IMG/VR virus record: IMGVR_UViG_3300041809_000237
Span: 1 to 23,544 of that record
DNA: 23,544 nt
Strand: one strand, 5' to 3'
Source: a virus
The notes under the pieces were generated by a model. It worked only from the letters and a program-made list of their open reading frames with translations, made no database searches and was not told the DNA's origin. Of the stretch, positions 229 through 23,544 are shown one piece after another. The translations under genes and the position numbers were made by a program. The stretch's first letter is position 1; every line of letters begins with the position of its first letter.

Positions 229-1251
229 GTGTCATTGCAGGCCCACGCCTACGTCACGCTCAACCCGAACTTCATGGAACCCGAGATCCTGATGCAGTAC
301 AGCCAGGCGTCGGGCTTCGTCGACACTCTCGCCGGTGGAACCATGCGGACGCGCCTCGGCGAGGACGATCTCATCGTCTACATGAAGCAGATGAATCTTC
401 GCACGAAGATGGCCGCAGCCACCGCAACGGCGAATGAGCTTCCGGGTGTGGACATCTCGGCGACCATGCTCTCCGCGCCTACCTACATGCAGCGGGTGCG
501 GGCGACTTACGATCACCACGACGTCGCCGCAGGTGGACGTTGGGGCTTCTCTGTCGTCGAGGCTTATCGGCTCGGCTGCCGCCAGGGCCACTACCAGCTC
601 GCCCGGGACGCCAACCTGTTCGGCTTCAACCCGCAGAACGGCGAGGGCCTCATCAACACGCCCGGCGCGCTGTCGACGAACCTGCCGGCGGACACGAATG
701 GCAATGACACCGTCCTGACCTACGACAACGGCCAGATGGCGTTCTACCTCGCGCAGATCATCCTCGGCATCAAGACGCGGACGAACCAACTCGGCCTCGG
801 CCGGAAGTTCACGATACTCGGCCCGCAACGGACGCTCGGCGTGTTCCAGTACAACGTCGTGCAGCTGGTGCAATATCAGCGCGTCGGCGCCGGCACGGCC
901 TCGACCGCCGGGACGCTGAAGTCGATCGTGATGGACAACGGCGACGAACTGACGTGGGCCTACGACGACACGCTGCAGGGCGCAGCGGGCTCGTCCGACA
1001 CCGATTATGTCATCGTTGCGATGCCGGAGGTCGAGAAGCCAGCCGGCGGTGAGGTCAACACCAACATCTTCGCGTCGCTGAACCCAAGCAATCCGGTTTG
1101 CATCACGCAGTATTGCGATATGGCGGCCCCGCGGGAGATCATCTCCCCGCTCGCCGGCGGCGCGACCGATTTCCTGCAGGAATGGCGCATCACGTCGGGA
1201 TGGGCGCCGCGCTACCAGGCGTTGACTCTAATCTCGATGACGTACTCGTAA
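229..1251 (+). CDS. Major capsid protein
   Basis: This 340-residue protein should form the phage shell. The start is GTG at 229, preceded by a strong AGAGGAG site about seven bases upstream. The sequence resembles the DUF2184-type HK97-fold capsid proteins. After an N-terminal arm (residues 1-65), the region around 85-130 (YMQRVRATYDHHDVAAGGRW, then a VVEAYRLG helix) looks like the E-loop/spine area. The C-terminal part carries the usual MPEVEKPAGG segment and the closing WRITSGWAPRYQALTLISMTY. Its position after a cement gene, the strong site and the terminator right behind it all suit the most abundant head protein. The exact capsid family is less certain than the role. Confidence 0.8.
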   Translation: MSLQAHAYVTLNPNFMEPEILMQYSQASGFVDTLAGGTMRTRLGEDDLIVYMKQMNLRTKMAAATATANELPGVDISATMLSAPTYMQRVRATYDHHDVAAGGRWGFSVVEAYRLGCRQGHYQLARDANLFGFNPQNGEGLINTPGALSTNLPADTNGNDTVLTYDNGQMAFYLAQIILGIKTRTNQLGLGRKFTILGPQRTLGVFQYNVVQLVQYQRVGAGTASTAGTLKSIVMDNGDELTWAYDDTLQGAAGSSDTDYVIVAMPEVEKPAGGEVNTNIFASLNPSNPVCITQYCDMAAPREIISPLAGGATDFLQEWRITSGWAPRYQALTLISMTYS

Positions 1252-3318: not shown

Positions 3319-3741
3319 ATGCCGATCGCCAGACCTCGCCCCGCCTTCCTCGTGAACCGCTCGACCGCGATGCAGCGTCGCACGCATCATCAGTTCATGC
3401 CCGGGCTCGGCTACGTCGCGCACTCTGGACCGCCAGACCTCCCGCCAGGAGCTAACGGCAAGGCGAACTGCGATCCGCCCGCAGGCACCGCCGACGGCTC
3501 CGTGCACGTCATGCAGCCGCCGCGGCCTCATCCGCCGATGCTGATGGTCTGGATCGCCGCGGAGAAGGCGTGGGCCTCGCAGCGGCCGGAGCGCGGCAAC
3601 CGGCTCGCGTGGCCGCCGGGCCATCTGTCGAAGGCCGGCTGGGAGTACGACAGTCCCGCCACCGCCGCGCCGTCGATCATCCGGCCGTCCGGTCCCGTTC
3701 CGGTCGCCGCCGGGCCGCGGCCGGCGCCTAAAAGCTCATGA
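3319..3741 (+). CDS. Pro/Arg-rich phage protein, unrecognised
   Basis: A 140-residue protein from ATG 3319 with AGGGAG nine bases upstream. It is unusually rich in Pro, Ala, Gly and Arg. There is a central hydrophobic/tryptophan section (PPMLMVWIAAEKAWASQRPE, then RLAWPPGH), and the last 30 residues are probably disordered (SIIRPSGPVPVAAGPRPAPK). The stop overlaps the next start (ATGA 3738-3741). The strong site, the overlap and the position between neck genes argue that it is translated, but no family or function is recognised. Confidence 0.55.
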   Translation: MPIARPRPAFLVNRSTAMQRRTHHQFMPGLGYVAHSGPPDLPPGANGKANCDPPAGTADGSVHVMQPPRPHPPMLMVWIAAEKAWASQRPERGNRLAWPPGHLSKAGWEYDSPATAAPSIIRPSGPVPVAAGPRPAPKSS

Positions 3742-4793
3742 GCACCGCTCAGGAAGCCCTCGGCGCGAAGTCCCCGATGGGGGCAGACCTCGCGGCCGGC
3801 GTCGAGGCGCTGTCGCTCGACCAGGTCATCACGTTCACTCGCTACCAGCGGCTCGTGCTTCCTCTCGACGGGTTCGTTTTTTGGGTAAAGGCTGGAATTC
3901 TCACGCCGTCGGCACTCTATAATTCGGCCCGTTTCAACGCCGCTCGATACAACCAGTCGCCGTCAAACATCTCAACCACGACGACGTTCGACGTGACCGG
4001 ATCGCTTCACCACGCCACCGACATCAGGCAGGAGGAAGCCAAAACCTACGCTGCGAACCGGATGATCTTCACCGCACTCGAACAGGTCAACGACCTTAAT
4101 GTTGTCGCCCCGGACACGCTGTGGATCGGGACGCTGCCGCCTGACGGCGACTTCCCGGGCCTGAAGTTCGCGTTCTCCAGCCGCGGGTCGTTCTACCAGC
4201 AGGCGGATCTCTTTCACTACGTCGGCTTCGCGGTCTATCCGGACATGGAGCCGCAGATCATCGATTCGCCGGCCGGCTTCGATTCGCGCAGCCTCATCGT
4301 CTCCAACAGCCTGCCGGCGTGGCTGGCGCTTAATTCTTATGCGCCGTTCTACGGCTTCGGCATGCCGCCAGGACTGACACTCTTCCCATCGTTCCTCGCC
4401 CCGAAGAATGAGCCGCCGCCGTTCGGTGCGGTCGACATCCCGCCGGAAGGGACCATCGGTCTCGCCTCGGCGCCGACGATCGATTTGGCGACGCGGTCGC
4501 ACTACCAGCTCACGAAGGATCGAGTTAAGGTTACGCTCTGGGGGACGCGGAACTACAACGCGCTCGACTTCGTCGACTGCGTCAACCAGTACAGCACGGA
4601 CGTCGGCGCCTTCGGAATCATGAACATCCCGATCATCCGGGACGAGAAGCGGACGCAGTCGGAGCTGGCGACGATCGCGATGAAGAAAAGCGTGGAGTTT
4701 GAGGTTTCATACCTTCAGAACCGGGTCAACGACATCGCTCGCGGGCTCATCAAGTCGTCGATCATCAACTGGACGATCTCCGAGGCCGCCTGA
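3738..4793 (+). CDS. Conserved virion structural protein (neck/tail-attachment region)
   Basis: A 351-residue protein that starts within the stop of the preceding gene. The sequence is globular with no membrane segment. A beta-rich middle (DTLWIGTLPPDGDFPGLKFA, PDMEPQIIDSPAGFDSRSLI) is followed by a well-defined C-terminal part: KVTLWGTRNYNALDFVDCVN, then IMNIPIIRDEKRTQSELATI and SYLQNRVNDIARGLI. I associate this C-terminal pattern with a large conserved protein found between the head and sheath genes in Bcep781-like myoviruses. A role in the neck or in head-tail attachment fits the location, but the biochemical function is unknown to me. Confidence 0.65.
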   Translation: MSTAQEALGAKSPMGADLAAGVEALSLDQVITFTRYQRLVLPLDGFVFWVKAGILTPSALYNSARFNAARYNQSPSNISTTTTFDVTGSLHHATDIRQEEAKTYAANRMIFTALEQVNDLNVVAPDTLWIGTLPPDGDFPGLKFAFSSRGSFYQQADLFHYVGFAVYPDMEPQIIDSPAGFDSRSLIVSNSLPAWLALNSYAPFYGFGMPPGLTLFPSFLAPKNEPPPFGAVDIPPEGTIGLASAPTIDLATRSHYQLTKDRVKVTLWGTRNYNALDFVDCVNQYSTDVGAFGIMNIPIIRDEKRTQSELATIAMKKSVEFEVSYLQNRVNDIARGLIKSSIINWTISEAA

Positions 4794-4868: not shown

Positions 4869-5366
4869 ATGAAACGCTTCCTGCCCGTCCTTCCCTTCCT
4901 GCCAGCATTCCTGTTCGGCGCTGCGGTCATTGCGTTGGTCGTCGCGTACACGACCACCAAACAAACGGCGCTCGCGGACGTCCAGGACAACCTCACCGGC
5001 GTCGCGACGATCACCAACTCCACCGCCGGTCCCGGCACGACCTCCATAATCGGCACCCGCAACACCGCCGCGAACGGCGTCATGTGCACCTTCAACCAGA
5101 CCGCAAACGTCGGCACCCCTAGCACGGTCATCTACGTCGACGGGGAAGATTCCGTGAGCGGTGCTTGGCAGAACCTCGCCGCCTCCGGCGCGGTGACCAC
5201 GAACGTTTCAGCCAGCGTCGAGGTCTACCCCGGCGCGGTCGCGACCTCCGTGCCTTCGGGCTTGGCGGTCGCAGGCCTCAAGCTGCCCGCGATCTGGCGG
5301 CTTCGGCAGATCATCACCGGCGGGACGTCGTCGACGAGCACGGCGAGCTGCGACCTCCTGCGATAA
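4869..5366 (+). CDS. Membrane-anchored or exported virion-like protein
   Basis: A 165-residue protein. ATG 4869 is preferred over an in-frame ATG at 4830 because GGAG lies about ten bases upstream and the protein then starts with a clean export signal: MKR, a hydrophobic run (LPFLPAFLFGAAVIALVVAY) and a possible cleavage site at ALA-D near residue 36. The rest is a beta-rich domain (residues 40-165) with VIYVDGEDSVSGAWQNLAAS and SVEVYPGA. It resembles small phage virion proteins that normally lack a signal. Two Cys residues remain in the exported part. It opens the island with the surface-polysaccharide gene, so it may act in the host envelope. Function is inferred. Confidence 0.6.
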   Translation: MKRFLPVLPFLPAFLFGAAVIALVVAYTTTKQTALADVQDNLTGVATITNSTAGPGTTSIIGTRNTAANGVMCTFNQTANVGTPSTVIYVDGEDSVSGAWQNLAASGAVTTNVSASVEVYPGAVATSVPSGLAVAGLKLPAIWRLRQIITGGTSSTSTASCDLLR

Positions 5367-5378
5367 ATATGGGTCTTC

Positions 5379-5462
5379 TTGACCGCGATGCTTGCGCCTG
5401 CGGCGGTCCTCGGTGGTTTGGCGGCGTTCGGTCTGATACGTTCTCCCTTCCGTCCTCATTGA
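5379..5462 (+). CDS. Possible tiny membrane peptide (27 residues)
   Basis: TTG at 5379, or ATG at 5388, opens a frame ending at TGA 5460-5462. From the ATG it reads MLAPAAVLGGLAAFGLIRSP and ends FRPH. This is a single hydrophobic helix with a small-residue face (GGLAAFG) and a basic end, a typical one-span peptide. The ribosome binding site is weak. Another frame over the same bases (ATG 5369, 36 residues) has no such character. Support comes from its hydrophobic pattern and from the next, better supported, tiny membrane peptide. Confidence 0.35.
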   Translation: MTAMLAPAAVLGGLAAFGLIRSPFRPH

Positions 5463-5475
5463 AGGATGCAGCGAA

Positions 5476-5568
5476 ATGATCCTCATCGCGATGATACCGG
5501 CGGCGTTGCTGGGCGCGTTCATGGTGGCCGTCGGCATCGCGGCCTTGATGCGCCTGCGCGCGGCGTGA
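5476..5568 (+). CDS. Tiny membrane peptide (30 residues) upstream of the polymerase-like gene
   Basis: ATG 5476 with AAGGA nine bases upstream encodes 30 residues: MILIAMIPAALLGAFMVAVG, then IAALMRLRAA. It is one transmembrane helix with a Pro kink, Gly-x-x-x small-residue spacing and a basic C-terminal end, so the basic end probably stays cytoplasmic. The TGA lies 12 bases before the start of the O-antigen polymerase-like gene. In phage D3 of Pseudomonas a peptide of about this size (Iap) inhibits the host O-antigen polymerase and sits with a phage polymerase gene. The likeness in size, type and neighbour is suggestive only. Confidence 0.5.
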   Translation: MILIAMIPAALLGAFMVAVGIAALMRLRAA

Positions 5569-5580
5569 TCGGGCGGCTTG

Positions 5581-6651
5581 ATGCCGCTCGCCGTCCTCGG
5601 TTTCCTGGTCGCCATCGCCTACGCGCCGATCCCGAGCGCGGTGTCGACGCCACGCTGGCTCGTGGTTGAGGTCGGCTCTTTCCTGCTCCTGCTTTCCACC
5701 CCCGCTCGCGCGCCGCACTGGCTCGCGATCGCGTTCCTGGCGTGGTGCGCGGCGACCGTGGCATGGTCCGCGTCCCCGCTGGATTCGGTCGGCGCGATGA
5801 TCCAGCTCGCGGCGCTCGCCGCCGCGTTCCAGGTCGCCGCAGAAACCGATGACCTGCGTCCGTTCTGGATCGCCATCGCCGCCGGAAGCGCCATCAACGC
5901 GGCCATCGCGGTCGCGCAGGTCGCCGGTCTCCACGTTTTCGACGTGGGCGGCAACGCCGCTGGTCAGCCGATCGGCCTGTTCGGCAACAAGAACTTCCTC
6001 GCCAACTTCGGCGCGCTCGCCCTGGTCGGGTGCTTGGCGCTGCGCGGCCCGCTGGCGGTCGCGCTCGCCGTCGGCGCCGCGACGGCCGCCCTGCTGCCGC
6101 TTTGCAGGGGGGCGATGCTGGCGCTCCTCGTCGCCGGCTTGGTCGCCAAGCGGGCCTCTCTCGCGGCTTGGCTGCTGTGCGCCGGGGCCGCGGTTGGCGC
6201 CGTCGCGGTCGATCTTTGGGTTCACCCGCTCCGCCTCTTCCTCAGCGTCACGCCGCGCGCGGTCACGTGGGAATGGACGGTGACGAACCTGAAGCCCTTC
6301 GGATGGGGGATTGGAACCTATGGAACGATCTTTCCGGTGGAGCACGCGTTCAACGATCTTCTTGAGTTCGTCTTCGAGGTCGGTGCCGGTACGGTTCTTC
6401 TGCTCGTCCTCCTCGCCCGTTGCTTTGCGGTTCCTGGACGCGCCGCAGAGAAGGCGGTTCTGGCGGCGATCCTCGTCGAAGGCATGTTCGCTTTTCCGCT
6501 CCATCAGGCGGCGACGGCCTTCGTGGCCGCTGTTTGCGCGGGTCATCTGTCTGGCAGCCGCGCTCGCGTTCGCGACGCTGAACGCGGCGGCGGAGATCGC
6601 AGCGTCTGGGGCCTTCTCAACGCCGGGCCTTTCGGCGTCAGAGCGATATGA
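5581..6651 (+). CDS. O-antigen polymerase/ligase-like (Wzy/WaaL family) membrane protein
   Basis: A 356-residue, very hydrophobic protein with about ten predicted membrane spans. It belongs by motif to the Wzy/WaaL group, which polymerise or transfer lipid-linked glycans on the outer face of the inner membrane. Family marks in order are LFGNKNFLANFGAL near residue 140, CRGAMLALLVAGL (in place of SRG), RAVTWEWT...PFGWGIGTYG near 225-245, and EHAFNDLLEFVFEVGAGT near 260, followed by a final span with FPLHQAATAF. Where WaaL has His-[NSQ] this protein has Phe-Asn; the preceding His is kept. ATG 5581 is chosen; TTG 5578 is possible, and the binding site is weak. The last 20 residues are Arg-rich and look out of frame (see 6530-6748). 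Confidence 0.75.
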   Translation: MPLAVLGFLVAIAYAPIPSAVSTPRWLVVEVGSFLLLLSTPARAPHWLAIAFLAWCAATVAWSASPLDSVGAMIQLAALAAAFQVAAETDDLRPFWIAIAAGSAINAAIAVAQVAGLHVFDVGGNAAGQPIGLFGNKNFLANFGALALVGCLALRGPLAVALAVGAATAALLPLCRGAMLALLVAGLVAKRASLAAWLLCAGAAVGAVAVDLWVHPLRLFLSVTPRAVTWEWTVTNLKPFGWGIGTYGTIFPVEHAFNDLLEFVFEVGAGTVLLLVLLARCFAVPGRAAEKAVLAAILVEGMFAFPLHQAATAFVAAVCAGHLSGSRARVRDAERGGGDRSVWGLLNAGPFGVRAI

Positions 6652-6748
6652 GCGGCTCGCCTTCGCCGCCAAGCTGTTTCCCTTCGACCGGAATCTGCGC
6701 GGTGGTGCCGAACGGTTCTGGCGCGCGGTGATGAAAGAGAAGAGGTGA
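6530..6748 (+). other. Out-of-frame C-terminal extension of the polymerase-like gene, or an overlapping small membrane protein
   Basis: In the +1 frame relative to the polymerase-like gene, the bases from about 6530 encode a hydrophobic span (LFARVICLAAALAFATLNAA) and then a tidy soluble tail, LSASERYERLAFAAKLFPFD followed by RNLRGGAERFW, ending at TGA 6746-6748. The polymerase frame over the same bases turns Arg-rich and stops at 6651. The frame is open from 6311, but its upstream part is only a shadow of the polymerase coding sequence. A TTG inside it would give a basic N-terminus before the span. A genuine or programmed frameshift, a sequencing error or an overlapping gene would all fit. 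Confidence 0.5.
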
Positions 6749-6843: not shown

Positions 6844-7155
6844 ATGCCGCAGACCCCCATCTACAACCCGAACATCGCTGCCTACGGAGCCAAGAGCGTT
6901 CCGGCGTTCACCGCCGCGACGCTCATCAAAGCGGCCAAGGGAACGCTTCTCGGCATCCAGGTCCTCGTCGCCGGCTCCGCGCCGGGAACGGTGAACGACG
7001 TCGCGACGCTCGCCGGCGTCGCTTCCGACAACGAGGTCGCGACCATCCCCAACTCGGTCGGCGCCGCGTCGCTGCCGGCGCCCGGCATCCCGTGCCTGAA
7101 CGGCATCGTGGTCACGCCGGGGACCGGGCAGACCTTGGCCGTCTTCTACATCTGA
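6844..7155 (+). CDS. Small virion-type protein preceding the tail sheath
   Basis: A 103-residue protein from ATG 6844, with AGGAG nine bases upstream. It is a compact beta-rich sequence: a mobile N-terminus (QTPIYNPNIAAYGAKSV), then LIKAAKGTLLGIQVLVAGSA, PGTVNDV and a closing strand pair with GIVVTPGTGQTLAVFYI. This style is common in small phage structural or fibre-associated proteins that decorate virions, but I do not know the exact family. It sits 38 bases before the sheath gene and after the tandem hairpins, so it may be the first gene of the tail sub-operon. Confidence 0.55.
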   Translation: MPQTPIYNPNIAAYGAKSVPAFTAATLIKAAKGTLLGIQVLVAGSAPGTVNDVATLAGVASDNEVATIPNSVGAASLPAPGIPCLNGIVVTPGTGQTLAVFYI

Positions 7156-7193: not shown

Positions 7194-9071
7194 ATGGCTA
7201 ACCCGATCGTAAACGTCACCGTGTCGCAGCAGATCGCTCCGGCGCCGTCGACCTTGCAGAAGAGCGGCGCCCTGATCTCACAAGGCGGCACGAACACGTC
7301 GCCGGGGACGAAGTCGCTGCTGACGCAGGATTCCAGCCTGACGAGCCTCTTGGCGGCGCCGCTGGCGCTGTCGGCGCTCAGCTGGTCCGGCGGTATCGCC
7401 ACGGCGACGGCGGCTGCGACCACGATCGCGAGCGGCACTTACAACGAAATCACCGGGCTCGTCACGCTGACCTTGACCGCGCCGATCGGGCTCGCGGTCG
7501 GGAGCCCGGTCGTCGTCAGCGGCGTGACCGGCACCGGCTCTTACGCCGACGTCGACGGCAGCTACGTCGCGGCGGTCGGCAGCGGTGGCATGACGCTCGA
7601 GTACACGATCGCGACCACGCTGACGCTCACGATCACCGGCGGCACCGTGACGCTCGGCCACGGCATTACGGTCGGCGATCAGTTCCTCACCACGATAGCG
7701 GGGGCGGTCCCGTCGAACTACGACGGCACGTTCCTCGCGACCTCTGCGACCGCGACGACGTTCACCTACCAGCTCGCCTCCGACGGCGGGACGTCCCCGG
7801 CGACGGGAACGATCACCTACACGCCGCGCGGCGTGGTTGAGCTTTCCGCGATGGCGGGAACCTTTTTCGACCAGGGAACCGCGCAAGCGGTCTGGGTGCT
7901 CGAACTTGGTCCCGGCGAGCCGTCTGCCGGCGTCTCGTTCCTGACGACTTGGATCGCGGCTAACCCCGGAGTTTTCTATTCTTACCTGGTGCCGAGATCG
8001 TGGGACGGCGTCGGTGCCTTCCTGACGATGCTCGCCGGCTTCGAGGCGACGACGTCGAAGACCAACTTCTTCATCACCACGACGCTGGCGACCTACAAGC
8101 TCTACACCGCGCTCATGAAGTGCGCGTTCACGCTGATCGAGGCGCCGGCTTACGGCGTCTGGCCGGCGAACGTCTTGACGGCGCTGTCGCAGATCAGCGG
8201 CGTCGCCACCGCGGTAACGACGACGAACCACGGCGTCCAGCCCGGGCAATGGTTCCAGCTTTCCGGCAACCTGCCGTCCGGCTGGAACGGCTGGTTCCTT
8301 GCGCTGCCGGGCACGGCGACGAACTCGATCACCTTCGACATCTCGTCCTCGATCGGCGCGGAGACGCAGCTCGGCACGCTGGTGACGAGCTACTACTCGT
8401 CGGCCGGCGTTCCCGCGACCGAGTTCTCTTGCGCGGCGCCGTTTCAGGTGACGCTCGACTATGCGCCGGCGTCGTCGAACCGCGTGACGCCGCTGAACCT
8501 GTCCTACCTGTTCGGCGTGACGCCGTTCCCGACGCAGGGCAACTCCGCGCTGCTGACGACGATCAACACCGCGAACGTCAACGTCATCGGCACCGGCGCG
8601 CAGGGCGGGATTTCAAACACCGTCCTGATCGGCGGCAACATGATGGACGGGAACCCCTTCAACTACTGGTACTCCGTCGACTGGTTCCAGATCACCGGGC
8701 AGCAGGCGGTCACGGCGGTGCTCATCAACGGCTCGAACAACCCGCAGAACCCGGTGTACTACGACCAGGCCGGCATCAACGCGCTGCAGGGCGCGCTGGT
8801 CACGGTCGCGAACAACGGCATCAGCTACGGGCTCGTGCTCAACCCGGTGCAGCCGACGCAGTTCTCGGCTGCGGCGTTCGAGGCGGCGCTCGACGCGGGG
8901 ACGTTCAACGGCTACACCGCGGTCAACGCCGATCCGTTCGCGAGCTACGTCGCGGAGAACCCGAACGACTACGCGACGGGGACCTATAACGGCCTGTCGG
9001 TCGACTACGTGCCGCTGCGCGGCTTCGAATCGATCACGATCAACATCACGGTTAGCAACTTCGCTTCGTAA
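7194..9071 (+). CDS. Contractile tail sheath protein with inserted beta modules
   Basis: A 625-residue protein that should form the contractile outer tube. ATG 7194 has AAGGGA seven bases upstream. The N-terminus (residues 1-55) and the parts around 210-320 and 400-625 read as a sheath scaffold. The closing section has INALQGALVTVANNGISYGL, then a region rich in Asn/Tyr, and ends with the beta strand SITINITVSNF needed for the sheath handshake. Two insertions interrupt it: a double beta module at about 60-210 and another at about 328-398. Both resemble FCCH-like modules and occur elsewhere in this window. The next gene is the tail tube, as expected. The sheath call rests on order, size and style. 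Confidence 0.75.
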   Translation: MANPIVNVTVSQQIAPAPSTLQKSGALISQGGTNTSPGTKSLLTQDSSLTSLLAAPLALSALSWSGGIATATAAATTIASGTYNEITGLVTLTLTAPIGLAVGSPVVVSGVTGTGSYADVDGSYVAAVGSGGMTLEYTIATTLTLTITGGTVTLGHGITVGDQFLTTIAGAVPSNYDGTFLATSATATTFTYQLASDGGTSPATGTITYTPRGVVELSAMAGTFFDQGTAQAVWVLELGPGEPSAGVSFLTTWIAANPGVFYSYLVPRSWDGVGAFLTMLAGFEATTSKTNFFITTTLATYKLYTALMKCAFTLIEAPAYGVWPANVLTALSQISGVATAVTTTNHGVQPGQWFQLSGNLPSGWNGWFLALPGTATNSITFDISSSIGAETQLGTLVTSYYSSAGVPATEFSCAAPFQVTLDYAPASSNRVTPLNLSYLFGVTPFPTQGNSALLTTINTANVNVIGTGAQGGISNTVLIGGNMMDGNPFNYWYSVDWFQITGQQAVTAVLINGSNNPQNPVYYDQAGINALQGALVTVANNGISYGLVLNPVQPTQFSAAAFEAALDAGTFNGYTAVNADPFASYVAENPNDYATGTYNGLSVDYVPLRGFESITINITVSNFAS

Positions 9072-12343: not shown

Positions 12344-12367
12344 ATGAGCATCAGTCTTGGGCTTGCC
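12344..12367 (+). repeat. 24-base duplicated gene start, copy 1
   Basis: It encodes MSISLGLA at the start of the endonuclease. It is 21/24 identical to 13087-13110, and all three differences are synonymous third-position changes (CTT/CTA, GGG/GGC, GCC/GCG). Confidence 0.85.
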
Positions 12368-13086
12368 GCTTACTTTTACGTTTATATTTATTTCGATCTC
12401 GACGGCATCCCGCTTTATGTCGGCAAGGGACATGGCAAGCGTTGGGAGAGGCTTGATCCGCATAGTTGTCGGAATCCGCATTTCCTACGCAAAGTCGCCA
12501 AAGCACGGCGCGAAGGCCGCGAACTACCCCGCCTTAAGGTCCGCGATAATCTTACCGAAGCAGAGGCCTTCGAGATCGAGATGGCCTTGATTAAGGCCAT
12601 CGGTCGACGCGTGACGGGAGACGGCCCGCTACTTAATCTCACCGAAGGCGGCCAAGGTATAAGCGGTTTTAAGTTCTCAGAAGAAACTCTCGCTAAAATG
12701 CGTAGCGCGGCACTAGGCCGGGTCGTATCTGTCGAAACGAGAGCAAAGATTAGCAAGACATCGAAAGGCCGACCAAAACATCCCGGACACGGTGCTAAAG
12801 TGTCCGCTGCTCGAAAAGGAAAGTTCCCGCACACAGCAGAATCGCGCGCGAAAATTTCGGCTGCGAGAACTGGTAAAAAATATGGTCCTCGCGGCCCAAT
12901 TTCCGAGACCGTACGGGAGAATCTTCGTTTAAAAAATTTGGGGAAAAAAGCATCGGCGGAGACGCGGCGAAAGATGAGCGCGGCCCACCTTGGAAAGCCT
13001 CTTGGTCCAATGCGCGAAGAAACGAAGGCCAAATTAAGAGCCGCCAGACTTGGTAAGAAGATCCCACAAGAACAATGGGTGCTCTT
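12344..13086 (+). mobile_element. Homing endonuclease insertion at the start of a baseplate-region gene
   Basis: The insert lies between the tape measure gene and the 13087 gene and is bounded by two copies of a 24-base start sequence. Removing 12344-13086 would restore the ribosome binding site GAGGACC (12335-12341) directly in front of ATGAGCATCAGT of the downstream gene. The lower GC content supports later arrival. The boundaries are inferred from the duplication. Confidence 0.7.
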
Positions 13087-13090
13087 ATGA
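12344..13090 (+). CDS. GIY-YIG homing endonuclease with NUMOD3 repeats
   Basis: A 248-residue free-standing endonuclease. The catalytic module (residues 5-95) has YVYIYFDLDG and LYVGKGHGKRW (the GIY and YIG strands and the catalytic Arg) and AEAFEIEMALIKAIGR with the metal-binding Glu. Residues 105-245 hold repeated DNA-binding NUMOD3 motifs: FSEETLAKMRSAALG, VETRAKISKTSKG, AESRAKISAARTGK, AETRRKMSAAHLGK and EETKAKLRAARLGK. Its bases are AT-richer than the neighbours (about 48% GC by hand count over 12841-12960). It begins MSISLGLA, the same eight residues as the next gene, and ends in an ATGA overlap with it. Confidence 0.92.
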   Translation: MSISLGLAAYFYVYIYFDLDGIPLYVGKGHGKRWERLDPHSCRNPHFLRKVAKARREGRELPRLKVRDNLTEAEAFEIEMALIKAIGRRVTGDGPLLNLTEGGQGISGFKFSEETLAKMRSAALGRVVSVETRAKISKTSKGRPKHPGHGAKVSAARKGKFPHTAESRAKISAARTGKKYGPRGPISETVRENLRLKNLGKKASAETRRKMSAAHLGKPLGPMREETKAKLRAARLGKKIPQEQWVLL

Positions 13091-13110
13091 GCATCAGTCT
13101 AGGCCTTGCG
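13087..13110 (+). repeat. 24-base duplicated gene start, copy 2
   Basis: It encodes MSISLGLA at the start of the downstream baseplate-region gene and pairs with copy 1 at 12344-12367. The bases from here to about 13200 are still somewhat AT-rich, as expected for a co-transferred flank. Confidence 0.85.
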
Positions 13111-13842
13111 AGTTTTAAGCTCAGCTTTTCCTTATCGCCAATTCTGCTTTCAGGCGGAATCGCAGCCGCGATGCCCGGAGGAATTTTGCCGATCATCGCG
13201 CTGACCGAAACTTTGAACTTCCCCGCCGGCATCCTCAGCGGCGGCTCTGATCTTCTTGACCTCGACGACTTCTTCGCGACCTTCGTCCCGCTCCCAGGGT
13301 CAACGCTGATCGACAACAAGTATGGGCAATTCCCGTTCGCAAACCAACAGGTCGCGGCGAACGCGGTGATCACGCAGCCGCTGGTGATCTCCTACCGGAT
13401 GATCTGCCCGGCGCAGAACGAACTCGGTTACCCGCTGAAGCTGGCGACGATGACGGCGCTGCAGGCGTCGCTGGCGCAGCACGGCGTCTCTGGCGGGACT
13501 TACATCTGCGCGACGCCGTCGTTCTTCTACACGAACTGCGTGATGCTCGGGATGCGCGACACGTCCGATTCGCGGAGCCAGCAGGCGCAGAATACCTACC
13601 AGCTCGACTTCTGGCAGCCGCTGCTGACGCTTCAGTCCGCGCTGCAGGCGCAGAACAACCTGATGTCGCAAGTCACCGGGCAGACGCCGGTCCCGGCGAC
13701 CGACGGCGCGGTCTCGTGGTCTGGGCTTTCGCCGACGACCGGCAACCCGGCCAGCATTGCCGGGCCCAGCGTCATCCCGGCGGCGGCGCCGCTCGCCGGC
13801 GCCGGAACCGCGGCTCCGGGAATGGGAGGGCCGCTCCCTTGA
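13087..13842 (+). CDS. Tail/baseplate hub-region protein
   Basis: A 251-residue protein. ATG 13087 overlaps the endonuclease stop (ATGA), and the first eight codons duplicate those of the endonuclease, so this is the likely original start; ATG 13075 is an in-frame alternative. The N-terminus is hydrophobic (FSLSPILLSGGIAAAMPGGI). The core at 65-195 contains NAVITQPLVISYRMICPAQN, ALQASLAQHGVSGGTYICAT and NTYQLDFWQPLLTLQSALQA, a pattern seen in proteins linking tail tube and baseplate. The last 45 residues are Ala/Pro/Gly-rich. It sits between tape measure and baseplate plug; a Dit- or gp53-like role is a guess. Confidence 0.6.
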   Translation: MSISLGLASFKLSFSLSPILLSGGIAAAMPGGILPIIALTETLNFPAGILSGGSDLLDLDDFFATFVPLPGSTLIDNKYGQFPFANQQVAANAVITQPLVISYRMICPAQNELGYPLKLATMTALQASLAQHGVSGGTYICATPSFFYTNCVMLGMRDTSDSRSQQAQNTYQLDFWQPLLTLQSALQAQNNLMSQVTGQTPVPATDGAVSWSGLSPTTGNPASIAGPSVIPAAAPLAGAGTAAPGMGGPLP

Positions 13843-18994: not shown

Positions 18995-19627
18995 GTGGCC
19001 ATCTTCATTTTCGCGAACGACGCTTCGTCAGACCTCGCCGCCCCGATCGCGAGCACGGCGACGACATGCACGGTATCGTCGGGCACCGGGGCGCTCTTTC
19101 CGAACCCGTCCGCGGGCCAGCAGTTCGCCTTCACGTTCAACGATGCCGCCACCGGGCTCCTGACCGAGATTTGCTATGTCACCACGCGCAGCGGCGACGT
19201 GATGTCGACGATGGTGCGGGCGCAGGAGGGCACGGTCGCGCTCAACTGGCTCGCCGGCGATCTCTGCGCGAACCTCGTGACGGCGGGGCAGATGGCTGCG
19301 ATGCAGCAATCGGCCGCCGTCTATCCGGCGCGCATCGTCACGGCGAGCGGCCCGTTCACGATGACGACCGCCGACGTCACCGGCGGCGTCGGCTTGAATC
19401 GGACGACGTCAGTCAACGTCTCCTCGACCACGCTGCCTGCGGGCGTGGCGCAAGGGCAAATCTACGCGATCGAGGACTTGGCGGCGAACTTCAATGCGTA
19501 TCCGGTGACGGTCAACGCCCCGGCCGGGATGACGATCGCCGGCGCGGCGAACGAGCTGCTGAACGTGAACCGGCAGTGCGCCTACTTCCGCTACTACGGC
19601 AGCAACATCTGGAGCTTCAAGCCATGA
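18995..19627 (+). CDS. Tail fibre base/attachment protein
   Basis: A 210-residue protein from GTG 18995, with AGGAGGGA starting at the stop codon of the preceding gene. Residues 1-100 are a domain seen at the start of many phage tail fibres: IFIFANDASSDLAAPIASTA, SSGTGALFPNPSAGQQF and TMVRAQEGTVALNWLAGDL. Residues 105-210 are a second beta domain ending FRYYGSNIWSFKP. It probably docks on the baseplate and receives the fibre proteins encoded downstream. Its stop overlaps the next start (ATGA 19624-19627), so the next product is made in step with it. Confidence 0.65.
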   Translation: MAIFIFANDASSDLAAPIASTATTCTVSSGTGALFPNPSAGQQFAFTFNDAATGLLTEICYVTTRSGDVMSTMVRAQEGTVALNWLAGDLCANLVTAGQMAAMQQSAAVYPARIVTASGPFTMTTADVTGGVGLNRTTSVNVSSTTLPAGVAQGQIYAIEDLAANFNAYPVTVNAPAGMTIAGAANELLNVNRQCAYFRYYGSNIWSFKP

Positions 19628-20628
19628 TCGCCGACCTTCTGCGCCGCAGCCTCGTCGCGCTGTCCGTCGCCGCGGCGCTGATCTTCTCCGGCGCCACGGC
19701 GAGCGCGCAATTCGCCGACCAGGCCAACTTCGCCAGCACTGGATCGGTTACCGGAGGCAACCCGAACGCGCAAACGCTGACGCTGAACAACGTCCTGTCG
19801 TTCGCGGACATCCTCGGCGTACCGATCCGGTACATCCCTTCGACTCCCAACACCGGCTCGGCGACGCTCTCGGTGATCGGCCAGAACACGCTGACGCCGA
19901 CGACGATCCAGAAGAAGACCAGCGCGGGCCTTGTGAACCTCGTCGGCGGCGAGCTGCAGGCCCAGATCGCCACGGTGACCTATGACGGGTCGGTTTTCGA
20001 ACTGGAGACGATAAACGCGGCGCCGCCGGTGACGACCTACATCACCAGCAGCGGAACTTACAGCACGCCCACCGGAGCGACCAGCCTAGAGATCACGGAG
20101 ATCGCGGGCGGCGGCGGCGGCGGCGGCAACGGGACAGGAACTAGCGCCGGAGGCGGAACTCAGGGCGGCAGCACGTCGATCGGCGGGGTGTCCGTTGCTG
20201 GCGGCGGTCCCGGCGGACAAAACGGCGGCACCACCGGCGGACTTGCAGGATCGCCACTATCAGGCACCGGCTCCGGAACTTATCTTGAAAGGTTTCCCGC
20301 CGGCGCCGGCCAGCCTGGACTTAACCAAGAATCGGGCACTGGCGTCGTCGACTTGGCGAGTTCGCTGGGAGGCGGTTCATGTCTGGCGTCCAGCAACAGT
20401 ACTAGCCCGGGCGCCGGCGGCAACGGGGCGGGCTCCGGCACCGTTACCATCGGTACTTCCGGCGGCGGTGCTGGCGGCGAATGCGCCACCTTCACGATTA
20501 TCAGCCCGTCGTCTTCCTATTCCGTTACGGTCGGAGCCGGTGGTGCTGGCGGATTGGCTGGAACGTCGGGAGGAAGCGGCAGGGCAGGAGTTCTCGGCTT
20601 GGTGATCGTTAAGGCCTTCTTCAACTGA
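19624..20628 (+). CDS. Glycine-rich adhesin/fibre protein with a Sec signal
   Basis: A 334-residue protein from ATG 19624. It opens with a textbook signal peptide: basic start (MIADLLRRS), hydrophobic core (LVALSVAAALIFSG) and an ASA-Q cleavage site near residue 28. Residues 45-130 are a common phage fibre domain (NTGSATLSVIGQNTLTPTTI, then LVGGELQAQIATVTYDGS). From 160 to about 325 it is extremely Gly-rich (AGGGGGGGNG, GGTTGGLAGSP, GAGGAGGLAGTSGGSG), like the glycine-rich domain of T-even-type gp38 adhesins that forms the receptor-binding tip. A receptor-binding role is likely; the export signal is unusual for a cytoplasmically assembled tail part. Confidence 0.65.
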   Translation: MIADLLRRSLVALSVAAALIFSGATASAQFADQANFASTGSVTGGNPNAQTLTLNNVLSFADILGVPIRYIPSTPNTGSATLSVIGQNTLTPTTIQKKTSAGLVNLVGGELQAQIATVTYDGSVFELETINAAPPVTTYITSSGTYSTPTGATSLEITEIAGGGGGGGNGTGTSAGGGTQGGSTSIGGVSVAGGGPGGQNGGTTGGLAGSPLSGTGSGTYLERFPAGAGQPGLNQESGTGVVDLASSLGGGSCLASSNSTSPGAGGNGAGSGTVTIGTSGGGAGGECATFTIISPSSSYSVTVGAGGAGGLAGTSGGSGRAGVLGLVIVKAFFN

Positions 20629-20987: not shown

Positions 20988-23544
20988 ATGATGATGCGGA
21001 CGCTCCTCGCCTTCGTCCTTTCCGCCGCCGTCCTCTCGACCGCGGCGCTGGCGCAAGGCCCGGGTAGCGGCGGGCCAGGACCGGGACCGACGCAGCCGTG
21101 GATCATCAACGGCGGGAACATCGAGTACAACAACGGCTGCGTCCTGGTCCCGTCGACGGTCTCCGGCGGATGCCAGGGACAGACCTATGGCGTGGCCGCC
21201 GCCTTCATCGGGGCCGGACCGTCGACGACGGGCGGCGCGAGCTTCAACATCGTTCCCGGCACGCCGCCGACGTCTCCGTTCAACGGCAACGTCTGGATCA
21301 CGTCGGCCGGCATGTTCTACCGCGCCGGCGGCGCCACGGTTGGTCCACTCGTCGGCGGCGGCTCGTCGCCGCTGTTCACGGTCCCGGTCACCATCGACCT
21401 CAACACCGCCGCGGCACCGACGCCGCTGACCGGCAGCGCGCTTCAGATAGTCGGCCCTTCGGGCACTACGGTGCGCGCCGAGCTGGACGCGGTCGCGTCG
21501 ATCCCGCGCTGGTCGTGCGTCCGCGGCGACGGCACGCTGGCGTCGCCTACGGCGGTGCAGTCCGGCGATGAGTTGTGCTCGCTCAACACCTTCGGCATCG
21601 CCGGGACGTCATGGACGCCGGTCGGCCCGCAGGCGGCGTTCCGGACCTACGCGAGCCAAAACTGGTCGAGCGGGAACAACGGTACCTACGCCGACCTCGC
21701 GCTGACGCCGACCGCCTCCTCGACGCTGACGGAAGTCGTGAAGTGGCAGGCGCTGTCGACCGGCGGCGGCAGCCAGACGATCTTTGACAACGGCATCGGC
21801 GCGACCTCGACCGACGGCCTCGTGCTCTCCAACGTCACGGCGGCGGCCTCCAGCGCGCAGCAATGGTCGCCGCGCGTTCACTGGACTGGCGCCGGCTGGA
21901 AGACCGCCTCGACGGCCGCGAGCCAGGTCGTCGACTTCATCGAGGAGCTGCAACCGATCCAAGGTTCGTCGGCCCCGACCGGGGCGCTGGCGTGGTCATC
22001 GCAGGTCAACGCCGGTGGTTACACCGCGCTGATGGCGCTCTACACCGACGGCGGCCTCGCGCTCGGAAGCCCGAGCGGCGGCGATGAAGGCGCCGGGACG
22101 GCGAACCTCGCCGGGGCGCTCTACAACAACGGCACGGGACCGACCGGGACCGGCGGCTACGTCCGGGCGACGTCGCCGTCCTTGGTCACCCCGGCGCTCG
22201 GCGTCGCGACCGGCACGTCGCTCGCGCTCGGCGGCGCGACCATCGGCTCGAACGCACTCGCAGTGACCGGCACTACAGCCCTGGGCGGGGCCGTGACCGT
22301 TACTTCGAATGCTGCGGCTGCGTTCGCAGTCGGTGCGAACGGCGCGACCAACCCCGTGCTCCAGGTCAACGCGGCAACATCCACCGTTGTCACCGGCCTG
22401 GACATCGTCGGTGCGGCCAGCGGCGGCGGGCTCGCGCTTTCGGTCATCTCCAGCAACTCCGCCGAAGCCCTGACGATCAACGCCAAGGGCACCGGCACCA
22501 TCGGGATCGGCAACGTCTCGACCGGAGCGGTCACGATCACGCCGGCGACGAACGTGATCGGCGCGTTCACCCTCGGCACGCAGCAGACGACGCAAGGCTC
22601 CGTCGTCCTCGCCAACACCGCGGCGGGGGCCTACGCGACCACGCTGAAGTCTTCGAACAGCGCGACCGCAGCCTCGACGCTGGTGCTCCCCGTCGCGCTC
22701 GCGGGTTCCGGCCCCGTGGTTCTGACCGACACGGTCGGCAACGGCATCCTGAGCTGGGTGTCGCCCGCTGCGGCGAGCAGCATCGCGGTCGGCTCGACCA
22801 ACGTCGGCAGCGCGCTCGCCAGCAACGACATCCTGACGACCGGACCCGTCATCGCCGGGACCGGGGTCTTGGCCGACAGCGGCTTCACGCTCGCCGGCGC
22901 GCTCTACAACTCCATCGGCGGATTGGGGCTGTCGAACGACGCGACGACGCCGAACAGCATCATCGACGTGGCGAAGGGCGCGGCGGCCGACAGCACCAAC
23001 GTGCAGATGATCGCGCTCAGCGCGTTCACCAAGACCACCGGCGGAACGTGGGTCACCGGAAGCGGCAACGCCGGGCTGGACATCGGGGCGGTCATCGCTT
23101 CGACTTGGTACCACGTCTATGCGATCTGGGGCAGCGCCAAGACCAACGACATCTTGTTGTCGCAGGCTCCAAACCTCAGCGGCGTGTCGGTCACCTGCAC
23201 CAATGCGTCGCCGATGGTCTGCACCTGGACCGGACTGGCGACCGGACAGGTGCCGCCGTTCCAAAACGGCACACCATTTCAGTTCACGTCGGGCACGCCG
23301 CCGACTGGCGGACCGACGTGGGCGCTGAATACGGTTTATTATGCTGTCGCCGTCTCCACCTCGACGGGAACCTTCGAGCTTTCGACGACGCAAGGCGGGA
23401 CCGCCGGCAACTCGACTTCCACAGGCTCCGCGCTGGTCGGCAAGGTCATCCCGATCCTGCCGAGCGGCTACACGCTCTTGCGCCGCATCGGCTCGGTTGA
23501 GACCGACGCCTCATCACATATTCTGGCGTTCACGCAGACGGCCA
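20988..23544 (+). CDS. Long tail fibre protein with a Sec signal (partial, runs off the window)
   Basis: An open frame from ATG 20988 (GAGGG nine bases upstream) has no stop before the window ends: 852 codons and one base. It starts with a signal-like peptide (MMMRTLLAFVLSAAVLSTAA, then LALAQ). Residues 55-300 are beta domains with SSGNNGTYADLALTPTASST and WKTASTAASQVVDF. Residues 370-640 are repetitive Ala/Gly/Thr/Val-rich fibre shaft (ALGVATGTSLALGGATIGSN, LTTGPVIAGTGVLADSGFTL). Residues 734-818 carry another FCCH-like beta module (ALNTVYYAVAVSTSTGTFEL). This layout fits a receptor-binding side fibre; the C-terminal tip or chaperone domain is not seen. Confidence 0.7.
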   Translation, partial: MMMRTLLAFVLSAAVLSTAALAQGPGSGGPGPGPTQPWIINGGNIEYNNGCVLVPSTVSGGCQGQTYGVAAAFIGAGPSTTGGASFNIVPGTPPTSPFNGNVWITSAGMFYRAGGATVGPLVGGGSSPLFTVPVTIDLNTAAAPTPLTGSALQIVGPSGTTVRAELDAVASIPRWSCVRGDGTLASPTAVQSGDELCSLNTFGIAGTSWTPVGPQAAFRTYASQNWSSGNNGTYADLALTPTASSTLTEVVKWQALSTGGGSQTIFDNGIGATSTDGLVLSNVTAAASSAQQWSPRVHWTGAGWKTASTAASQVVDFIEELQPIQGSSAPTGALAWSSQVNAGGYTALMALYTDGGLALGSPSGGDEGAGTANLAGALYNNGTGPTGTGGYVRATSPSLVTPALGVATGTSLALGGATIGSNALAVTGTTALGGAVTVTSNAAAAFAVGANGATNPVLQVNAATSTVVTGLDIVGAASGGGLALSVISSNSAEALTINAKGTGTIGIGNVSTGAVTITPATNVIGAFTLGTQQTTQGSVVLANTAAGAYATTLKSSNSATAASTLVLPVALAGSGPVVLTDTVGNGILSWVSPAAASSIAVGSTNVGSALASNDILTTGPVIAGTGVLADSGFTLAGALYNSIGGLGLSNDATTPNSIIDVAKGAAADSTNVQMIALSAFTKTTGGTWVTGSGNAGLDIGAVIASTWYHVYAIWGSAKTNDILLSQAPNLSGVSVTCTNASPMVCTWTGLATGQVPPFQNGTPFQFTSGTPPTGGPTWALNTVYYAVAVSTSTGTFELSTTQGGTAGNSTSTGSALVGKVIPILPSGYTLLRRIGSVETDASSHILAFTQTA

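Follow-up and report, generated by a model that had tools for sequence, protein, structure and literature searches.

The window analysed here is a stretch of 23,544 nucleotides and represents a complete viral record (23.5 kb). The tail sheath gene marks it as a contractile-tailed phage. Between a conserved upstream gene to which no function is assigned and the sheath, and on the strand of the late genes, lie two tiny open reading frames, a multi-pass membrane protein gene and a short tail frame (Table 1). The reading frames reported in the preliminary description were all present, and its placement of them within a late operon, 5' of the tail sheath, was borne out. Of the flanking genes it named, the sheath was correct, whereas the label 'neck' for the upstream gene derives from position alone.

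Table 1 Features of the analysed window and the basis of their assignment
Feature	Position	Strand	Basis or remark
Major capsid gene	229-1251		
Conserved gene, function not assigned	3738-4793		phrog_6359
p4872, secreted or membrane-anchored beta protein, gene 5' of the enzyme	4869..5366	+	Homology, AF2 model
27-codon hydrophobic mini-ORF	5379..5462	+	Window only; TTG start, ATG at 5388
30-codon hydrophobic mini-ORF	5476..5568	+	Window only; ATG with GAAGGA upstream
Wzy_C/WaaL-superfamily multi-pass membrane protein, frame 0	5581..6651	+	Homologs, PF04932 matches, AF2/WaaL match; TTG at 5578 is an alternative possible start
Phe257, His position before the Asn of the WaaL signature	6349..6351	+	23-homolog alignment and sequence
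Invariant Gly321 codon, frame 0	6541..6543	+	Codon-position information content
C-terminal TM and TPR-like tail, +1 frame	6542..6748	+	Homologous +1 tail in 23/23 loci, TPR hits; frame open from 6311
Small beta-type protein, next gene 3' of the tail frame	6844..7155	+	
Tail sheath	7194-9071		phrog_205, E 4.8e-26

Searched on its own, the protein encoded at 5581-6651 gave nothing convincing by HMM in Pfam, PHROGs, NCBIfam, PDB sequences or the phage collection, and no relative among the viral contigs. Weak 'Colicin' and pyocin matches were rejected as chance hydrophobic resemblance. None of the 14 relatives found by the capsid gene carries the enzyme gene. The family was reached by way of the capsid protein, which led to phage relatives in genome contigs, including L024, a phage-like contig of a Rhizobiales MAG with an enzyme homolog (36% identity over 226 aa). 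The alignment of the window and L024 proteins retrieved 7 viral loci, and the enlarged alignment brought these to 22 in all. With L126 being a duplicate of L121, 23 distinct loci were obtained, the window and L024 included, and 22 of them are uncultivated viral contigs; these counts do not represent independent events, and the host information comes from one MAG. The Pfam family PF04932 (Wzy_C) was matched by six of the eight homologs aligned first (best 2.7e-10), and WaaL (7tpg) was the sole significant PDB match of the AF2 model of the window enzyme (mean pLDDT 67, pTM 0.75; Foldseek E 7.3e-5, prob 1.00). By homology and predicted fold, the protein is a member of the O-antigen ligase/polymerase (Wzy_C/WaaL) superfamily, so that the family call made earlier holds, although no HMM hit it directly.

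Cellular matches in Alphaproteobacteria were weaker and came from longer frames (470-541 aa, compared with about 335-400 aa in the phage enzymes); the C-terminal addition is absent from those inspected. Among the 289 genomes taken at class level and the 398 at order level around the MAG of L024, the sole strong match was the L024 contig itself. No match came from cultured phages, searched with four members of the family and two of the partners, or from predicted viral structures, searched with Foldseek.

WaaL-type enzymes transfer lipid-linked glycans in the periplasm. Their catalytic-type residues are R215, R288 and H338 in E. coli WaaL and R224, R298 and H349 in Neisseria PglL (PMC3643930), and the conserved residues of the phage family correspond to this set by order. 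The alignment of 23 homologs revealed conservation of R176, R226, a GxGxG motif, N258 and E266. R176 and R226, each kept in 22 of the 23 homologs, are the window's counterparts of the two conserved arginines (R215 and R288 in E. coli). The motifs GNKNFLAN, CRG and HAFND...EVG, noticed earlier in the window, were confirmed and coincide with conserved alignment columns. The phage enzymes share with WaaL the fold and the order of the two Arg, GxGxG and the H/F-N-x-x-L...G motif, and differ from it in being shorter and phage-encoded and in having a TM/TPR-like C-terminal part in the +1 frame.

A further difference is confined to the window copy. Position 257, which matches E. coli WaaL H338 and Neisseria PglL H349 by order, is occupied by Phe in the window and by His in 22/23 homologs. 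The codon TTC is at least two base changes away from CAC or CAT and is therefore not a single-base error. Since Phe257 replaces a conserved catalytic-type His, the window enzyme may be inactive or altered. The copy could even be catalytically dead or decaying and possibly kept to bind a partner, in a family otherwise working in either of the glycan-transfer roles considered below; the insert of 210 nt with the mini-ORFs, which parts the enzyme from its partner gene p4872 in the window but not in the relatives, would fit such a course. We consider it unlikely, given that both frames are intact, that the tail scores like the others and that MagA-type Wzy proteins have Asp at the seemingly corresponding place, which indicates that the His position can vary (PMC3485256).

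The Pfam domains Wzy_C_2 and PglL_A were matched by neither the window protein nor the aligned homologs, and the PglL-specific residues (Q178, N180, H400, E404, P406) were not found. By eye, the place of Q178/N180 in PglL is taken by N-x-N in the window, and nothing corresponding to H400/E404 could be made out. For this reason, the enzyme was not filed as PglL.

The 'short membrane-tethered tail' had been listed as a separate member of the cassette; it is instead the C-terminal TM (and TPR-like) part of the Wzy-like gene. A homologous C-terminal membrane span in the +1 frame, overlapping the frame-0 enzyme, was found in all 23 loci. The span is followed by a short domain, often with TPR-like repeats, and longer versions match TPR models (in L135, Pfam TPR_19 with 8.5e-6). 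With held-out profiles, the window tail scored 45.5 bits in the +1 frame against -2.3 in frame 0 and 5.8 for the best shuffle; across all loci, the +1 scores ranged from 10.7 to 83 bits and those of frame 0 from about -3 to 2. According to the codon-position information content, the constraint switches from frame 0 to the +1 frame at the invariant Gly321 codon (invariant GG).

Two modes of tail translation were weighed. A programmed +1 frameshift was our first reading, and it is favoured by the start codons: none is conserved at the junction (ATG occurs at +4 in 7 loci), and ATG, GTG and TTG are absent from -116 to +60 of the junction in the window. It was lowered because Shine-Dalgarno-like GGAG/GAGG with TTG was found at -53 of the junction in 8 of the 23 loci, compared with 1 and 0 in the other frames. 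These starts, together with an excess of TTT at the same place (12 observed, 6.0 expected), speak for an internal start of the tail. Neither a known slippery motif nor a signal of a stimulatory structure (mean z -0.04) was seen at the frame switch, which counts against a classical frameshift. The +1 frame is open for at least 25 codons upstream in 23/23 loci; this test is uninformative for the choice, since the +2 frame is equally open in about 19-20 of them.

The recurrent neighbour of the enzyme, overlooked in the preliminary description, is a secreted phage protein. Immediately 5' of the enzyme, 14 of the 22 scorable loci (15 with L127, where an HNH-like gene is in between) have a gene with a Sec-type signal peptide, and 20/22 have one on at least one side of it; in 6 loci it is downstream only and in 2 none was within range. 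The heuristic used to call signal peptides was simple and home-made, and its false-positive rate is roughly 10%; it gave background rates of 12% for the other genes of the same loci, 7% for relatives without the enzyme and about 12% (13/111) for D3, lambda and Mu. Any ORF ending near the enzyme start was scored, and the chance rate at that position is consequently somewhat above these figures. The enrichment beside the enzyme still stands, most of the signal peptides being plain by eye.

The partner in the window, p4872, has a hydrophobic N-terminus and is 30% identical to L024:4952-5449 (BLASTP E 2e-13), which has a clear Sec-type signal peptide, and about 30% identical to L128:7429-7989. Its AF2 model (pTM 0.60) is an eight-strand beta protein (beta sandwich) with weak jelly-roll matches only. 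No Pfam or PHROG match was obtained for p4872, and a scan with two proteins of this type found no relative. The small protein encoded 3' of the enzyme in the window (6844-7155) has look-alikes by eye in L121, L122 and L126, and these bear a Sec-type signal peptide. A small protein between neck and sheath of a Nitrospira MAG contig (L026:13373-13870) also has one, whereas its window counterpart at 6844-7155 does not. In the relatives, the signal-peptide gene for the most part directly adjoins the enzyme gene or overlaps it. The p4872-type partner and the enzyme lie upstream of the capsid gene in L024, i.e. at another genome position, and are paired in L128 as well; in other loci, the unit is near terminase- or portal-like genes. 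As this type of partner stays with the enzyme at different genome positions, the two move together between phage lineages. The partner proteins are of several unrelated-looking types, and no hit identified them as pilins.

Wzy proteins carried by phages are known for serotype conversion during lysogeny, and the locus had been likened to a cassette of this kind, that of phage D3 (iap, acetylase, wzy-beta). Both phages encode a polymerase-type protein as well as a peptide some 30 residues long. A cassette of the D3 type is not supported. The occurrence of the same small peptides next to polymerase-like genes in related phages had been put forward as a check, and the 27- and 30-residue peptides were found beside the enzyme in none of the other loci. 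Neither of them aligned with D3 Iap, and D3 Wzy-beta is not a close relative of the enzyme family (hhalign probability 0.8%). Moreover, iap and wzy-beta of D3 are antisense to the late genes, with the acetylase between them, and are sited between the tail and lysis genes. Of the + strand mini-ORFs of 22-45 aa in the window, these two peptides alone contain a strong hydrophobic segment, and when an interval of equal length was Markov-shuffled 2000 times, just 0.1% of the shuffles gave even one such mini-ORF. They are non-random-looking and may be real, outside the conserved unit.

A change of the host surface glycan, which the preliminary description had proposed, would not require these peptides. 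The enzyme would ligate or polymerise O-antigen or capsule late in infection, and the benefit would be blocked superinfection or progeny freed from receptor debris. The WaaL/Wzy family membership agrees with this, as do the phage-borne Wzy proteins of D3 (PMC4815439) and of Acinetobacter phages (wzyPh1; PMC9241936), which alter surface glycans. WzyPh1 is likewise phage-encoded and present in unrelated prophages, but it is a capsule polymerase in prophages of isolates, and the available part of that report describes neither a link to exported proteins nor a +1 tail (PMC9241936). The slot that separates the 3738-4793-like gene from the sheath, a short gap in most relatives, also bears on the question. 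It contains an NAD epimerase and a methyltransferase (both by Pfam) and a transferase-like gene (by eye) in the closest relative, L041, a transferase-like gene (by eye) in L004/L005, and a TPR protein with a methyltransferase (the latter by Pfam) in L084. Glycan-related cargo at this slot is plausible, Pfam backing the epimerase and the methyltransferases alone. The relatives lack an Iap-like peptide, however, the D3 cassette is built and oriented otherwise, and a surface-glycan change on its own leaves the linkage to exported proteins of the phage unexplained; we regard it as the main alternative, with the odds against it.

A non-enzymatic late role of a recruited membrane protein, for example excluding superinfection at the inner membrane or assisting lysis or export, would suit the late-operon position, the high hydrophobicity and the tiny membrane peptides adjoining in the window. 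It seems improbable, as the conservation of the family is concentrated on the WaaL catalytic-type residues.

In its signal-peptide linkage, the locus is closer to dedicated protein O-glycosyltransferases (TfpO/PilO, PglS) than to the D3 cassette. The genes for the substrates of TfpO, TfpM and PglS lie near those of the enzymes (PMC12645811), and pglL homologs adjoin pilin genes in 21/31 cases (PMC3643930). These are WaaL-type enzymes often encoded beside the exported protein they modify. They are bacterial, however, and PglL and PglS have a periplasmic C-terminal domain, Wzy_C_2 (PMC12645811), whereas the phage family shows neither a Wzy_C_2 hit nor the PglL-specific residues and no hit makes its putative acceptors pilins. 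The repeated association with exported proteins of the phage and the precedent of dedicated O-oligosaccharyltransferases (PMC12645811, PMC3643930) led us to favour protein glycosylation over a surface-glycan change. We tentatively propose, at somewhat short of even probability, that the phage enzyme transfers glycans to exported proteins of the phage. It would be a phage-specific branch of WaaL/Wzy whose catalytic, multi-pass part is written in frame 0 and whose single-span, often TPR-bearing part is written in an overlapping +1 frame. Sitting in the host inner membrane, it would take a lipid-linked glycan, presumably made by the host, and pass it on at the periplasmic side, most likely to the Sec-exported phage protein encoded alongside, in the manner of TfpO/PilO or PglS acting on a neighbouring pilin. 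Against this count the missing PglL-specific residues, the diversity of the partners, the 6 loci with a downstream partner only and the 2 without one, the heuristic signal-peptide calls and Phe257 of the window.

Several other features of these genomes were observed. In the window, a GIY-YIG-like nuclease gene (by eye; 12344-13090) precedes the tail gene 13075-13842, and MSISLGLA occurs at or near the start of both, as though the downstream gene's start had been duplicated by an insertion. Residues about 46-155 of the sheath recur with 35% identity (E 2e-8) in L002:9474-9806, a different protein near the capsid gene, which suggests a shuffled beta domain. An 837-aa head-region protein with a Nudix-like stretch (by eye) is encoded just 5' of the capsid gene in L024 (6799-9312). 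At the end of the tail genes of the window, two fibre-like low-complexity proteins (19624-20628 and 20988-23544) have Sec-type signal peptides, e.g. MIADLLRRSLVALSVAAALIFSGATASAQF. Fibre-like proteins with signal peptides are also encoded in L069, L126, L127, L132 and L135. Nothing pertinent on exported phage fibres was found in the literature.

A wider reading, which we hold to be doubtful, is that of a mobile phage protein-glycosylation unit, an oligosaccharyltransferase with a +1 TM/TPR part dedicated to Sec-exported, including fibre-like, phage proteins. If it were true, host glycan would cover phage proteins that are exported or bound to the virion. The family also raises the question of why phages export fibre-like proteins at all, and its tail offers a clean overlapping-frame case in which internal initiation can be set against frameshifting. 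This WaaL-type family belongs to uncultivated phages, is missing from the cultured collection searched and would point to periplasmic-side protein glycosylation by phages.
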